A DNA stretch of 64,000 bases from Streptomonospora mangrovi. GTDB lineage: Bacteria; Actinomycetota; Actinomycetes; Streptosporangiales; Streptosporangiaceae. The stretch lies in contig NZ_JAJAQC010000012.1 of the NCBI RefSeq assembly GCF_027604915.1, positions 1 through 64,000 on the forward strand, read 5' to 3'. Below are positions 48,604-60,536 of the stretch, piece after piece; the stretch's first letter is position 1, and the number at the start of each line of letters is the position of its first letter. Both the position numbers and the translations under genes were made by a program. The notes under the pieces were generated by a model. It was given only the letters and a program-made list of their open reading frames with translations. It made no database searches and was not told the DNA's origin.

Positions 48604-49593
48604 ATGCTGGCCGATTCCTACGGCAGAGTCGCCACCGACCTACGCGTCTCGCTCACCGACCGCTGCAACCTCCGCTGCACCTACTGCATGCCCCCCGAGG
48701 GCCTGGAGTGGCTGCCCAAGGACGACCTCCTGACCGACGACGAACTCGTCCGCCTCATCGGCATCGGCGTGACCCGCCTGGGCATCGAGGAGGTCCGCTT
48801 CACCGGCGGCGAACCCCTGCTGCGCCGCGGCCTGGTCGGCATCGTCGCCGCCACCACCGCCCTGCGGCCCCGCCCCCACACCGCCCTGACCACCAACGGC
48901 ATCGGCCTGGCCCGCACGGCGCCCGCGCTCGCCGAGGCCGGCCTCGACCGCGTCAACGTCTCCCTCGACACCCTGCGCCCCGACGTCTTCGAGAAGCTCG
49001 CCCGCCGCCGACGGCTCACCGACGTCCTCGACGGCATGGCGGCCGCCGCCGCGGCCGGGCTCACCCCGGTCAAGGTCAACAGCGTGCTGATGCGCGGCGT
49101 CAACGACGACGACGCCCCCGACCTGCTGCGCTACTGCCTGGACCACGGCTACGAACTGCGCTTCATCGAGCAGATGCCGCTGGACGCCCAGCACGGCTGG
49201 CGCCGCGACACCATGGTCACCGCCGACGAGATCCTGGACCGCCTCGGCGTCCACTTCGACCTGGAGCCCGCCGACGCCGACACGCGCGGCAGCGCCCCGG
49301 CCGAACTGTTCCACGTCGACGGCGGCCCGGCCACCGTCGGCATCATCGGCTCGGTCACCCGGCCCTTCTGCGGGGCCTGCGACCGCGTGCGGCTGACGGC
49401 CGACGGCCAGATCCGCAACTGCCTGTTCGCCCGCGAGGAGTCCGACCTGCGGCCCCTGCTGCGCGGCGGCGGCACCGACGAGGAGATCGCCGACCGCTGG
49501 CGCGCCGCCGTGGCCGCCAAGCTGCCCGGACACGGGATCAACGACCCCAGCTTCCTGCAACCCGCCCGCCCGATGTCGGCCATCGGCGGCTGA
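48604..49593 (+). CDS. moaA: GTP 3',8-cyclase (molybdenum cofactor biosynthesis)
   Basis: This radical-SAM enzyme carries out the first step of Moco synthesis, turning GTP into the 3',8-cyclo intermediate. The protein has 329 residues. The N-terminal cluster cysteines are Cys21, Cys25 and Cys28 (CNLRCTYC). The C-terminal GTP-site cluster uses Cys256, Cys259 and Cys273. The essential C-terminal Gly-Gly is present. FTGGEPLLR is the SAM glycine-rich motif. No moaC/moaE lies adjacent; mobA is 3.6 kb downstream. Confidence 0.96.
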   Translation: MLADSYGRVATDLRVSLTDRCNLRCTYCMPPEGLEWLPKDDLLTDDELVRLIGIGVTRLGIEEVRFTGGEPLLRRGLVGIVAATTALRPRPHTALTTNGIGLARTAPALAEAGLDRVNVSLDTLRPDVFEKLARRRRLTDVLDGMAAAAAAGLTPVKVNSVLMRGVNDDDAPDLLRYCLDHGYELRFIEQMPLDAQHGWRRDTMVTADEILDRLGVHFDLEPADADTRGSAPAELFHVDGGPATVGIIGSVTRPFCGACDRVRLTADGQIRNCLFAREESDLRPLLRGGGTDEEIADRWRAAVAAKLPGHGINDPSFLQPARPMSAIGG

Positions 49594-53872: not shown

Positions 53873-54166
53873 TCAGCCGGTGAAGTCGGCGAAGGGGACC
53901 GTCTCCAGCAGGAACCCGCGCACACTCAGGAAGTCGGCGAGGTAGTCGCGGTGGTCGTCGCAGGCCGTCCAGGTCTTGCGGCGGTCCACGGTGTGGATGC
54001 GGGGGTTGTTCCACACCAGCACCCAGGCCGCCGGTGCGCGGCAGCCGCGCCGCGAGCACAGGATCTCGGGCTCGGGCGCCCCGGCGGGGCCGCCGCCCGG
54101 TGCGGGCTCGGTGTGCTCGGGGCGGTGTTCGCCGCCGTCCCCCGGTGCCGGTGCGCTGGTGTCCAC
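53873..54166 (-). CDS. Small conserved actinobacterial protein with cysteine pair
   Basis: This 97-residue protein has a disordered Pro/Gly/Glu N-terminus (1-35). A compact core with CSRRGC, the Trp-rich AAWVLVWNNPRIH and ACDDHRDYLADFLSVRGF follows. The Cys-Cys-Cys-His spacing suggests a small zinc site. I recognise the core as widely conserved in actinomycetes, but it has no proven function. GTG 54166 follows GGGGAG. Confidence 0.75.
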   Translation of the reverse strand: MDTSAPAPGDGGEHRPEHTEPAPGGGPAGAPEPEILCSRRGCRAPAAWVLVWNNPRIHTVDRRKTWTACDDHRDYLADFLSVRGFLLETVPFADFTG

Positions 54167-54254
54167 GCCGCTCCCCAGTCGTAGCGGGGCGGGTGCCTCC
54201 GCTCGTCGGTCAGGTGCCGGTCACGAGCATGCCACGGCACGGTCTTTGGCGCAC

Positions 54255-54301
54255 AAAAAAGCGACGTCGGGTGGCTACGGGGGCAAACCACCCGACGTCG
54301 C
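54255..54301 (-). terminator. Intrinsic terminator of the 6C-like RNA
   Basis: A perfect 14-bp stem (GCGACGTCGGGTGG, 54261-54274, with 54288-54301) is followed on the minus strand by six T (54255-54260). It is the only textbook T-run terminator in the window and has CCCCC in its loop. Confidence 0.9.
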
Positions 54302-54366
54302 AACGGTGTTCCGACGGGGGCTCGGAACACCGGCCCAGCGCTTCGACGGGGGACCGAAGCGCTGAG
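54255..54366 (-). ncRNA. 6C-like small RNA
   Basis: On the minus strand, three consecutive perfect hairpins occupy about 110 bases. They are CAGCGCTTCG/CGAAGCGCTG (54336-54364), GTGTTCCGA/TCGGAACAC (54306-54330) and the 14-bp terminator stem (54261-54301). Every loop carries CCCCC followed by GT. Paired stem-loops with C-rich loops define the actinobacterial 6C RNA, a C-rich-loop regulator that can pair with G-rich ribosome-binding sites. A sigma-70-like promoter lies at the right distance and a T6 tract closes the unit. It lies between a small minus-strand gene and dodecin. Confidence 0.75.
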
Positions 54367-54370
54367 GCCC

Positions 54371-54402
54371 AATCTACACCGACAACCCCCTGTGTACGTC
54401 AA
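54371..54402 (-). promoter_or_regulatory. Promoter of the 6C-like RNA
   Basis: Read on the minus strand, TTGACG (54397-54402) is followed by TAGATT (54371-54376), with a spacing of 18-20 depending on alignment. It is placed to start transcription near 54362-54368, just at the first hairpin. This is one of the few near-consensus housekeeping promoters in the window. Confidence 0.6.
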
Positions 54403-54646
54403 GACTTAGTTACGACGTGGTCTCGGGAAAGTCCAGCAGGTCAGTACATCAATGGTCCTGAACAGGCAGGAAAGGTGCATTACCCACAGGAGTCACAGGG
54501 CGACGAAGCGGTCACCCGCGCCCCCGCCGACGGTCCGTCCGCAATCCGCCGCACCACCCGCGCCGACGCCGCATGCGTGCCGAACCGGTGATTGCCGCCA
54601 CGCGCGGCGGGCAGTGTGCAACCGAGCACCTACGGAAGGGAGCCGC

Positions 54647-54856
54647 ATGTCGCACCACACCTACCGCGTCACCGAGATCGTGGGTACCTCGACCGAGAGC
54701 GTGGACCAGGCGATCCGCAACGGCATCGAGCGGGCCGCCGCCACCCTGCGCGAACTCGACTGGTTCGAGGTCACCGAGATTCGCGGCCACCTGGAGAACG
54801 GCCAGGTCGGGCATTTCCAGGTGGGCCTGAAGGTCGGGTTCCGGCTGGACGAATAG
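54647..54856 (+). CDS. Dodecin
   Basis: This is a 69-residue dodecin, a dodecameric flavin-storing protein. The sequence YRVTEIVGTSTESVDQAIRN and the flavin-stacking tryptophan in RELDWFEVTEIRGHLENG are canonical. Length is normal and GGAAGGGAG precedes ATG 54647. It likely buffers free FMN/FAD or lumichrome in the cytoplasm. Confidence 0.95.
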   Translation: MSHHTYRVTEIVGTSTESVDQAIRNGIERAAATLRELDWFEVTEIRGHLENGQVGHFQVGLKVGFRLDE

Positions 54857-56719: not shown

Positions 56720-58147
56720 CTAGGACGCCTGGCTCACCGTGGACATGTTGAAGTCGGGCACGCGCAGCGGCGGCATCGCCGTGCGGGTGAACCCGTCGCC
56801 GAACTCCCGGCCCAGCGCCGGAACGGTGGCCCCCGCCTGCACCGCCCGCTCCAGCAGGCTCACCGGCGACTCGTTGAAGCGGAAGTTGTTCACCGCGCCG
56901 GTGACCCGGCCGTTCTCCACCAGGTAGACGCCGTCGCGGGTCAGCCCGGTCAGCAGCAGCGACTGCGGGTCCACGGTACGCATGTACCACAGGCACGTCA
57001 GCAGCAGGCCGCGTTCGGTCTGGGCCACCATCTCGTCCACCGTGGCCGCGCCGTCGGCCTGCCACAGCACCAGGTTGCCGATGAACGCCGTCAGCGGCAG
57101 CCCGGTGGTCTCGGCGGTGCGGCGGGTCTGCGTCAGCGCCGCCAGTTCACCGCTGGAGATCCACTCCGTGCGCCGCAGCGGCAGCCCGTTGTCGAACGCC
57201 GTGACGCGGCGCCCCGGCGCCGTCGCCGAGACGAACGGGGAGCACTCCAGCCCCGGCAGGTGGGGGTCGCTGAACAGCGTCAGCGGCAGCGTGGCCAGCC
57301 GGTCGCCGACCCGGGTGCCCCCGTCGGGCGCCGAGAACACCGTCCGCCCCTCGGCGGCGTCGCGCCCGTTGGCGTTGAGGTAGAGGAAGGCCATCATGTC
57401 CGCCACGGCGCTGGGCGGCAGGATGGTCTCGTAGCGCCCGGCCGCCAGGTCCACCCGGCGCTCGGCCCAGCCGATCCGCCGGCCCAGCTCGTGCTCCAGC
57501 GCGTCGACGTCCACGTCGGAGAAGTCCCGGGTCGCCTGACCCACCCAGGCGGAGTGGCCGGTGCCCGGCCCGGACTCCGCCTCCCCGGCGGACTTCGCGT
57601 TCACGTCGATCGTGCCGGTGGGCTGGTCGTGGCGCAGCCGCACCCCCGTCGAGGTGCCCAGGAACGTCGAGGTCACCGTGTGCTCGGCGTAGCCGTACAG
57701 GCGCCGCCCGCCCGCGCCGGCGCGCTCGAAGGCGCGGCCCAGGCCCGGCGCCACCCCCGAGAACGCGGACATGTCGGTGGCGGCCGCCGGCGCGTCCCAC
57801 GGGGTCGCCTTGGCGGGCGCGCAGGCGTCCTCGGGCGTCAGCAGCGGCGACGCGTCGTCGGTCGGCAGCGCCTCCTCGCCGGCCGCCTCGGCCGCACGGA
57901 CCAGGTCCTCCAGTTCGTCGTCGCGGACACCGGTGCGCGAGCGGGTGCCGACGGCCACGCCGCGCGAGGTGCGGTTGAGCGCGACCACGGTGACCGTGCG
58001 CCCGCGCGTGGCGCCGTTGGTCGTCAGCGAGTTGCCCGCCCAGCGCAGGTTGGCCGAGGAGGTCTCCTCCACCAGCACCATGCACTCGTCGGCGCGCGCC
58101 AGCTCCAGCGCCCGCTCCACCACCGCCTGAGGAGCGGTCCCGCTCAT
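56720..58147 (-). CDS. pmbA: TldE/PmbA, non-catalytic subunit of the TldD/E metalloprotease
   Basis: This 475-residue PmbA/TldE-family protein lacks the HExxH zinc motif, as expected. It forms a heterodimer with TldD that trims unfolded or modified peptides (microcin B17 maturation, CcdA turnover in E. coli). The C-terminal blocks (LLLTGLTRDGVYLVENGRVTGAVNNFRFNES, seen as LTRDGVYLVENG and VNNFRFNES) are typical. ATG 58147 overlaps the tldD stop (ATGA), so the two are translationally coupled. Confidence 0.92.
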   Translation of the reverse strand: MSGTAPQAVVERALELARADECMVLVEETSSANLRWAGNSLTTNGATRGRTVTVVALNRTSRGVAVGTRSRTGVRDDELEDLVRAAEAAGEEALPTDDASPLLTPEDACAPAKATPWDAPAAATDMSAFSGVAPGLGRAFERAGAGGRRLYGYAEHTVTSTFLGTSTGVRLRHDQPTGTIDVNAKSAGEAESGPGTGHSAWVGQATRDFSDVDVDALEHELGRRIGWAERRVDLAAGRYETILPPSAVADMMAFLYLNANGRDAAEGRTVFSAPDGGTRVGDRLATLPLTLFSDPHLPGLECSPFVSATAPGRRVTAFDNGLPLRRTEWISSGELAALTQTRRTAETTGLPLTAFIGNLVLWQADGAATVDEMVAQTERGLLLTCLWYMRTVDPQSLLLTGLTRDGVYLVENGRVTGAVNNFRFNESPVSLLERAVQAGATVPALGREFGDGFTRTAMPPLRVPDFNMSTVSQAS

Positions 58148-59631
58148 CGCCCTGCCTCCTGCACTGTGTTGAGAACCCGGATGTCGGAGAAGACCGCCGT
58201 GGGGCAGCCGTGGCTGACGGCCGCGACCTGCCCGGGCTGGCCCTTGCCGCACATGAACGACCCGCCCAGCTCGTAGGTCTGCGGCCCGCCCAGAGCGCGC
58301 ATCGAGTTCCAGAAGTCGGTGGTGGTGGCCTGGTAGGCGACGTCGCGCAGCATGCCGGTCAGGCGGCCGTTCTCGATGCGGTAGAAGCGCTGGCCGGTGA
58401 ACTGGAAGTTGTAGCGCTGCATGTCGATGGACCAGCTCTTGTCGCCCACGATGTAGATCCCGCGTTCCACCCCGGCGATCAGCTCGTCGGTGGAGGGGCC
58501 GTCGGGGTCGGGGGCCAGCGACACGTTGGCCATGCGCTGGATCGGCATCGTGGCGGGGGAGTCGGCGTGGGCGCAGCCGTTGGAGGACTCGTAGCCCTGG
58601 AGGCGGGAGATGCGCCGATCGCGCTGGTAGCCCACGAGCACGCCCTCGCGGATGAGGTCGAAGGAGGAGGTGGCGACCCCCTCGTCGTCGTAGCCGATGG
58701 TGGCCAGGCCGTTCTCGGCGGTGCGGTCGCCGGTGACGTTCATGATCGGCGAGCCGTACCGGAGGGTGCCGAGCTGGTCGGGCGTGGCGAAGGAGGTGCC
58801 CGCGTAGGCGGCCTCGTAGCCCAGCGCGCGGTCCAGTTCGGTGGCGTGGCCGATGGACTCGTGGATGGTCAGCCACAGGTTGGAGGGGTGGATGACCAGG
58901 TCGTAGCGCCCGGCCTCGACGCTGGGGGCGGCCAGCTTCTCGGCGAGCAGTTCGGGGAGGGCGTCGAGTTCGGGCTCCACCTGGGCGGTGTACTCCCAGC
59001 CGCGCCCGGCGGGCGCGGAGATGGTGCGCATGCTGTCCAGCCGCCCGTCGCGGGTGGCGACGATCTCGACCTCGGGGGCGATGCGCACCCGCTGCTGGGT
59101 GGTGACGGTGCCGGCGGTGTCGGCGTAGAACTTCTGCTCCTTGACCGCCTCGAAGGACGCGTCGACGTGGTCGACGCGGCTGTCCTCCAGCAGGCGGCGG
59201 CTCCAGCCGGCGAGCAGCGCGGTCTGCTCGCGCGGTGTCACGGTGAAGGGGTCGACCGTGTAGGAGGACACCCAGGTCACGTCGCGGTGGGCCGGCTCGG
59301 GCGCGAGTTCGACGCGCTCGGTACTGGCGGCGGCGGACACGGCCGCCACCTCGACCGCCCGGCGGGCCACGGCGACGGCGGCGTCGACGGTGAGGACGGT
59401 GTCGGCGGCGAACCCCCAGACGCCGTTGTGGATCACCCGGACGGCGAAGCCGAGGGTATCGGTGTCGCTCTCACTGTCGAGTTCGGCGTCGGAGAGGGAG
59501 ATGTAGCGCCCCCGGATCCGCTCCAACCGGAAGTCGGCATGATCGGCCCCGAGTTCCCGGGCCGCCTGCAACGCCGCGTCGGCCAGTTGCCGCATCGGCA
59601 GGGCAAGGAAGTCAGCATCAATGTCAGGCAC
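58144..59631 (-). CDS. tldD: TldD, zinc metalloprotease subunit
   Basis: This is the 495-residue catalytic subunit of TldD/TldE. The zinc motif HESIGH (257-262) sits in SNLWLTIHESIGHATELD. A later conserved block has GYESSNGCAHADS and SFMCGKGQPGQ, with cysteine. The frame remains open through the CRISPR array, but GTG 59631 (VPDIDADFLAL) is the natural start; its ribosome site (GGGGGA) is close and weak. It lies 65 bases from the last CRISPR repeat and is transcribed in the same direction. Confidence 0.92.
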   Translation of the reverse strand: MPDIDADFLALPMRQLADAALQAARELGADHADFRLERIRGRYISLSDAELDSESDTDTLGFAVRVIHNGVWGFAADTVLTVDAAVAVARRAVEVAAVSAAASTERVELAPEPAHRDVTWVSSYTVDPFTVTPREQTALLAGWSRRLLEDSRVDHVDASFEAVKEQKFYADTAGTVTTQQRVRIAPEVEIVATRDGRLDSMRTISAPAGRGWEYTAQVEPELDALPELLAEKLAAPSVEAGRYDLVIHPSNLWLTIHESIGHATELDRALGYEAAYAGTSFATPDQLGTLRYGSPIMNVTGDRTAENGLATIGYDDEGVATSSFDLIREGVLVGYQRDRRISRLQGYESSNGCAHADSPATMPIQRMANVSLAPDPDGPSTDELIAGVERGIYIVGDKSWSIDMQRYNFQFTGQRFYRIENGRLTGMLRDVAYQATTTDFWNSMRALGGPQTYELGGSFMCGKGQPGQVAAVSHGCPTAVFSDIRVLNTVQEAGR

Positions 59632-59696
59632 AGTCCCCCAACCTAACGAGAGACGCAACCCGGAGCCAGATTCACGGAACGAACAGGGCATTCGGG

Positions 59697-59907
59697 GCAC
59701 CATCCCCGCGCGTGCGGGGAGCACGGAGAGGAACCCCGATGAGCGACGAGTACCGGGGGACCATCCCCGCGCGTGCGGGGAGCACTCGATCGGCCCGCAC
59801 GCCGCGATGACGTCCGGGGGGCCATCCCCGCGCGTGCGGGGAGCACCCGCCGATGTCGCCGCGGTCGGCGGCGCCGGTCGGGCCATCCCCGCGCGTGCGG
59901 GGAGCAC
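59697..59907 (-). CRISPR. Short CRISPR array, four type I-E-like repeats, three spacers
   Basis: 28-base repeats lie at 59697-59724, 59758-59785, 59819-59846 and 59880-59907, at exactly 61-base intervals, with 33-base spacers (29 + 32 is equally possible). On the minus strand the repeat begins GTGCTCCCCGCG, contains the hairpin CCCCGCGCGTGCGGGG and ends GGATGG. This is the actinobacterial I-E pattern. The repeat core is invariant; the repeat nearest tldD differs at its end, as the distal repeat usually does. This places the leader at higher coordinates. No cas gene is in the window. Confidence 0.95.
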
Positions 59908-60536
59908 CCTTGTTGACCTGGGGGTTCTTCGGCGTGGGGTAGCGCTTTTGGTCACTTGCCGCTCCTGCGGCCAGGACGACGGTACTCCCTCCGAGGGGTG
60001 CGTGGGGGGAACGTGAAAGTCGCCTGAGGCCCGCCGTTCGTTTACGGGTCGGGGTGTGGCATGGGCCACCGAAATTCGGGGTTGCCATGGGTCGCGTTCG
60101 GCATTCCTCGGCTGTTAGCTTGGTTATGTCACGCGGTCATCACGGTCCACCATCGGTGGTCCGGGCCGGGTGAGGCTTTCCATCCCCAGGCGCGGACTCG
60201 GTCCGTGGTTGGGAAATCGGAGTGGCGCCACGGCGCATACTCGTCGTCCTACACGACAGCGCTTCTGCCTGCTGCGGTACGCCCTGGCAGGTAAGGGGCT
60301 CTGGGGCATGCCCACCGTAGGTCGGCGGGCACTCCGGCGACCGTTCACGATGTGAACATACTGCGACTCAGTCGGTGAACGCGATCAGCCATGCCCGAAT
60401 TCGGGTGGCACGGGCAATCGCATTCGCGGGCTGAACAACCCTGCCCGAATTACCGACGGCGCGTTCGACAACGCCGCTCGGAATTCCGGCGACCCCTAAA
60501 ACCCACCCACTGCATTTTTTGTCCGCAGGAGCCGCC
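59908..60536. other. Leader/intergenic region between the CRISPR array and the MFS gene
   Basis: There is no gene in 629 bases. The part next to the array should hold the CRISPR leader on the minus strand. An imperfect palindrome (GGTCCACC-atc-GGTGGTCC) lies near 60147. The part before the MFS gene has three GAATT-centred sites, listed separately. Confidence 0.45.
60392..60488. promoter_or_regulatory. GAATT-centred palindromes upstream of the MFS gene
   Basis: CCCGAATTCGGG (60394-60405) is a perfect palindrome. TGCCCGAATT recurs 50 bases apart (60392 and 60442), and CGGAATTCCG (60479-60488) is a second palindrome. All lie within 145 bases of the MFS start and may bind a dimeric regulator. 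Confidence 0.4.

Follow-up and report, generated by a model that had tools for sequence, protein, structure and literature searches.

The C-loop small RNAs of actinobacteria are the closest described systems. The 6C RNA (RF01066; B11 in mycobacteria and scr3558 in Streptomyces coelicolor) is a short intergenic RNA made of C-loop hairpins, the last of which is terminator-like, and PMC8388888 defines it by two stem-loops that contain at least six C each. According to PMC10470900, 6C/B11 acts on ribosome binding sites through its C-rich loops, and in M. abscessus one B11 C-loop, either of them, is enough for repression of a reporter that carries a G6 tract. For Streptomyces, PMC3765725 describes two groups of conserved and highly expressed sRNAs with a C-rich loop, scr1434/sar6912/svr1031 and scr5583/sar2652/svr5279, which are seen on northern blots; it reports that C-rich loop sRNAs are expressed and developmentally regulated in this genus, and mentions C-rich loop sRNAs of staphylococci, RNAIII among them. 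Both scr1434 and scr5583 are named after the right-flanking gene. In staphylococci, an unrelated clade, the C-rich loops of RNAIII-type sRNAs target mRNAs. The alphaproteobacterial ar7 RNA (RF02342) also shows hairpins with CCCCC-type loops. To our knowledge, actinobacteria are mostly without known Hfq-type sRNA chaperones, and few conserved actinobacterial sRNAs have a known function.

The window, which is the whole 64,000-nt stretch of Streptomonospora mangrovi DNA analysed here, contains on its minus strand, between 54402 and 54255, a -35/-10 pair followed by three strong hairpins that display CCCCCG(U) and a T6 tail. By direct reading and folding, this region contains the following elements:

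54409-54424, minus strand: upstream motif GAGAYNACGTCGTAAC, a possible activator site (direct reading; present, with variants, in most of 48 homologues)
54397-54402, minus strand: -35 element TTGACG (direct reading)
54371-54376, minus strand: -10 element TAGATT (TANNNT), at a spacer of 20 bp (direct reading)
54336-54364, minus strand: hairpin 1 (H1), loop UCCCCCG, with CCCCCGT at 54346-54352 (fold)
54304-54332, minus strand: hairpin 2 (H2), loop GCCCCCG, with CCCCCGT at 54314-54320 (fold)
54261-54301, minus strand: hairpin 3 (H3), the terminator stem, loop UGCCCCCGU, with CCCCCGT at 54277-54283 (fold)
54255-54260, minus strand: T6 tail, intrinsic terminator (direct reading)

The predicted folding energy of the full RNA is -79.6 kcal/mol, compared with -47.3 +/- 3.8 kcal/mol for its shuffles (z -8.5; none of 200 shuffles is as good), and H1, H2 and H3 taken singly fold better than all 200 shuffles (z -5.1, -5.9 and -6.8, respectively). 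The window contains the three-motif pattern a single time, against an expectation of 0.01, and one of 100 shuffles has it. The last U of CCCCCGU is the stem-closing base in H1 (G-U) and in H2 (A-U), which leaves UCCCCCG and GCCCCCG as the respective open loops. The first-pass annotation had described three stems with CCCCCGT in the loop, a near-consensus promoter, and a T6 terminator whose own loop carries the motif. The T6 terminator, at 54260-54255, and the CCCCCGT of the H3 loop are as it described them; the three strong hairpins with the motif and the -35/-10 pair are also there, but the last U is paired in H1 and H2 and a spacer of 20 bp is not consensus. A consensus scan of promoters and terminators reports neither element at this locus: its sigma-70 part allows spacers of 16-18 bp, against 20 bp in the window promoter, and the terminator may have been missed because its loop reads as nine bases and the scan maximum is eight. 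Judged from the sequence, the locus shows the first trait of a C-loop sRNA, a free-standing intergenic RNA with its own predicted promoter and intrinsic terminator. With three stem-loops of five C each, it falls outside the definition of 6C, which asks for two loops with at least six C. 6C differs also in its longer pure C runs, compared with CCCCCG(U) here, and in its other locus, and the RNAs described here have from one to three C-loops.

A DNA search finds homologues in all six genus genomes and in 196 of 200 family genomes; the other four family genomes give no match, either by DNA search or by covariance model. Among the matches listed, the carriers include Nocardiopsis alba, N. alborubida, Nonomuraea and Microbispora. 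Extraction from the best BLAST loci and 19 hand-picked ones gave 48 sequences, from which an alignment set of 45 rows (A1) was taken: L008 (the same RNA as that of the window), L011 and L012 (missed by the regular expression) and L021 (a duplicate) were left out, and L010, L023, L030 and the window itself were added by hand. In these 45 sequences 99.4% of the stem cells are paired, and 16 of the 36 stem pairs show double compensatory changes (six of nine in H1, five of 11 in H2 and five of 16 in H3), a number equalled by none of 500 shuffles and far lower in slid versions. The CCCCCG loop is retained by 44 of the 45 in H1, 44 in H2 and all 45 in H3, and CCCCCGT by 40, 44 and 45, respectively; of the five sequences whose H1 departs from CCCCCGT, four close the stem with G-C, not G-U. 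The alignment shows a second trait of a C-loop sRNA, conserved unpaired C-rich loops on compensated stems. Protein coding was considered and rejected: linker lengths vary by 1-4 nt, which makes coding unlikely, and one member (L026) is short of one C in two loops. Among the 80 loci listed for a loose form of the three-motif pattern, eight carry the RNA by model R1, seven of them at 118 bits or more and the eighth, one Streptomyces, at 41.5 bits. L197, also among these 80, gives an R1 match at E 0.079, and the remaining loci were taken as chance matches. As far as sequence comparison can tell, the locus is a conserved sRNA gene that belongs to a new family beside 6C, of which the window's family holds the three-loop variant. 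We consider it probable that it encodes a free-standing minus-strand sRNA of ~115 nt, from a family distinct from 6C, whose C-loops pair with G-rich mRNA sites.

The promoter is also shared by the homologues. The -35 element is TTGAC or TTGAT in 48 of 48, a figure to be read with the regular expression that collected them, which itself demanded one of these two, and the spacer is 20 bp in 47 of the 48 and 21 bp in the other. The 20-bp spacer and the upstream motif GAGATCACGTCGTAAC suggest an activator-dependent promoter. A MerR-like dyad in the spacer was rejected, its best centre showing 46% complementarity that comes mostly from a few fixed columns, and the locus shows no sign of a PafBC-type promoter. 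Upstream of the predicted start, the spacer itself (54377-54396) contains a run of G in most homologues; members of the window's genus also have a TACAC...GTGTA dyad there.

Outside the family, model R1 finds shorter two-hairpin RNAs in 10 of 296 phylum genomes and in 113 of 394 class genomes at E<=0.01; H2 is the extra hairpin relative to these forms. A second model, R2, was built from 27 two-hairpin sequences, none of them from the window's family, in which 12 of 21 pairs are changed on both sides and 98.4% of the cells are paired. This set (A2) dropped L102, L107, L112 and L115-L119 from L101-L128 and took six of L059-L067, omitting L063 and L066, with L070 in place of L059 (same gene); since its regular expression demanded C-loops, it is unfit to show two C-loops in all members. 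With R2 the window RNA scores 64.4 bits (E 4.1e-9), and 153 of the 394 class genomes have a match at E<=0.01. At E<=1e-5 R2 matches 129 of them, by hand count 41 in the window's family and 88 in 13 other families, the latter mostly f3 (39) and f86 (21); f3 is Streptomyces-like by our own reading, and one named Streptomyces carries the RNA. In 246 phylum genomes R2 gives just two matches outside the class, both at 34 bits (E about 0.002), so its noise level is placed at ~34 bits.

The number of C-loops was surveyed in a chosen set, 20 fetched loci and five earlier ones. Families f77 (seven of seven read), f81 (L107 and L115), f80 (L361) and one f94 genome (L360) show H1 without a CCCCCG-type loop and keep the terminator CCCCCGU; because f77 and f81 keep the terminator loop alone, several C-loops are dispensable. 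The universal core is the CCCCCGU terminator loop, with a C-loop count that ranges from one to three. The f82 RNA has a G run in its 5' part: of the 11 read, six show ACGGGGG, three GCGGGGG and two CCGGGG (L344 and L349). The carriers of (A/G)CGGGGG are L102 (reverse strand), L118, L119, L342, L343, L345, L346, L347 and L348. This run is complementary, exactly or nearly, to the CCCCCGU terminator loop of the same RNA, and loop-loop pairing of the two is possible. As a tentative reading, which we find conceivable but doubtful, these RNAs would form a second actinobacterial C-loop sRNA family, widespread in the class and fixed next to moaA, with a CCCCCGU core and gain and loss of near-identical loops, in which the f82 RNA switches itself off by loop-loop pairing. 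The series would then run from one loop in f77 and f81, through two in Streptomyces and others, to three in the window's family, and the f82 RNA would hold its own antidote. Such a natural series of one, two and three near-identical loops would make it possible to ask if the range or strength of targeting depends on how many loops there are.

For the free-standing sRNA with pairing loops that we favour, transcription would start from the conserved promoter and end at the intrinsic terminator, and each C-loop would pair with a G-rich stretch of a target mRNA (complement ACGGGGG). By analogy with 6C/B11 in mycobacteria, with which the window RNA likely shares its pairing logic, such pairing would mostly block translation, and with the extra loops each molecule would offer more binding sites and gain redundancy. 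The target search covered two genus genomes, with 800 kb (~13-14%) taken from each, which gave 304 orthologue pairs. Each genome has a single ACGGGGG between -25 and +3 relative to the start, conserved in none of the 304 pairs, and the start-site counts of this motif are no higher than those of its permutations (42 arrangements compared). CGGGGG near starts is conserved in three of the 304 pairs, and its permutations in one to four; one of these three genes has a start that we take to resemble the carbamoyl-phosphate synthase large chain. Since neither motif shows an excess over its permutations, broad ribosome-site targeting is not visible in this sample, and the G-rich ribosome sites that were to be checked as targets lend such pairing no support. 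A small target set for the window RNA is possible.

The lack of excess of the loop complement at ribosome sites would also suit a decoy, in which the repeated loops bind a C-binding protein or another partner that is not an mRNA and the RNA titrates the protein, as would the conservation of the loops as a motif plus hairpin context in one to three copies. We find this explanation unlikely and count against it that we know of no such C-binding protein in actinobacteria. The nearest analogue, 6C/B11, works instead by pairing with G tracts, according to PMC10470900.

Position was examined by searching the RNA neighbourhoods for the proteins that flank the RNA in the window, which contains these neighbours:

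54647-54856, plus strand: dodecin gene (PF07311, E 4e-29; synteny)
56720-60069, minus strand: pmbA and tldD genes (similarity, gene order; the called tldD frame is over-long upstream)
48604-49593, plus strand: moaA gene, on the other flank (similarity, gene order)
53873-54166, minus strand: gene of a small Cys-containing protein, next downstream of the RNA (signature WNNPxxHTxxRRKTW)

We take the window genes to be pmbA, tldD and moaA from recognition of their proteins. The moaA gene lies ~5 kb from the RNA, separated from it by rtcB, a NADAR gene and a mobA-like gene. The 19 family loci show pmbA in 19, tldD in 18 and dodecin in 15. The 28 distant loci (L101-L128) are outside the family or doubtful, L117 being a second match in a family genome, and moaA and/or dodecin adjoin the RNA at 25 of them. 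The other three, L112, L116 and L117, show neither moaA nor dodecin nearby and their sequences are without C-loops, so they are regarded as false matches. The putative RNA family sits between tldD-pmbA(-dodecin) and moaA. Gene order in the Streptomyces form is tldD, pmbA, tyrS, GlsB-like, DUF3099-like, RNA, small protein and moaA, which by S. coelicolor numbering would presumably lie near SCO1816-1821, not SCO1434 or SCO5583. Identity with scr1434 or scr5583, compared by neighbourhood alone, has no support from this gene order. Four CCATCCCCGCGCGTGCGGGGAGCAC repeats with a spacing of 61 nt at 59682-59910 of the window form a short CRISPR array, presumably of type I-E, which is enclosed by the over-long frame that was called upstream of tldD.

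The small Cys-containing protein has two Cys, is conserved from Streptomyces-like genomes to the window's family and gives no Pfam match. As in the window, its gene comes next after the RNA in Streptomyces and in several further families. Its gene is not a constant partner of the RNA, since it is found at 10 of the 28 distant loci and directly downstream of the RNA in three of the 19 family loci. These occurrences, together with a start ~22 nt past the RNA in the Streptomyces-like locus L068, would favour a 5' leader or attenuator of this gene with signal-dependent read-through of the terminator. We regard this as rather improbable, because the gene is not adjacent to the RNA at the majority of the 19 family loci or at the f86 loci read, where the RNA is equally conserved; no region varies less than the terminator stem, and unsystematic inspection reveals no competing antiterminator fold. 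A plain strong terminator region of GC-rich intergenic hairpins with no sRNA function is very unlikely: H3 makes a good terminator and high-GC genomes often have intergenic regions rich in hairpins, but termination needs neither a promoter with a fixed 20-bp spacer nor compensated stems and near-invariant loops.

RF01066 gives no match in the 64-kb window at the gathering threshold, and none at E<=10 in 54200-54500. The same genome shows a 6C-like RNA on another contig (L001 1501-1576) that scores 43.2 bits, against a cut-off of 47, and the C. glutamicum 6C control likewise scores under the cut-off, so this threshold misses genuine-looking members. The genome's own 6C has two loops, of C8 and C6, the second on the last, terminator-like hairpin, and the contrast drawn by the first-pass annotation, in which a C-loop on the terminator hairpin set the window RNA apart from 6C, does not hold. 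Among 18 RNA-carrying genomes, 6C is at a separate place in 16 (over the cut-off in 10); the search found none in G261 or G744, both of which still show the window-type RNA. On the 6C of this genome R1 scores no more than 7.9 bits (best overlap), which is not a credible match. That the window RNA is a divergent member of the 6C family is highly improbable: in its favour are the shared plan of C-loop hairpins with a terminator-like last one and the presence of both RNAs in the same genomes, and against it are the missing RF01066 match, the low R1 score and the separate loci. Orthology with 6C was rejected on the same missing match and on the second locus beside a separate 6C. What had been called a 6C-like RNA thus keeps its minus-strand sRNA gene, by conservation, compensation and position, and a plausible mode of action, but loses its membership of 6C, for which the proposed covariance-model check is negative.

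With similar hairpins at separate loci, the two RNAs have a common architecture and probably a common mode of action, and coexist in the same genomes; they may have a deep common origin by duplication, and the window RNA looks like a partner of 6C, not a copy. No family of Rfam 15 matches the window RNA or the nine homologous loci of other families tested; the tenth locus scanned is a 6C locus, also beneath its Rfam cut-off. The gene is apparently undescribed so far: a literature search of main texts found no description of it, and supplements may list the Streptomyces form. A widely conserved family with no Rfam 15 match, which antibiotic-producing groups carry in addition to 6C, could serve to test whether structured C-loops stand in for chaperone-assisted pairing. 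The best Rfam line for the window RNA is ar7, at 20.2 bits (E 0.043), far under the gathering score of 60 and from another phylum, a resemblance that is probably convergent or due to chance.
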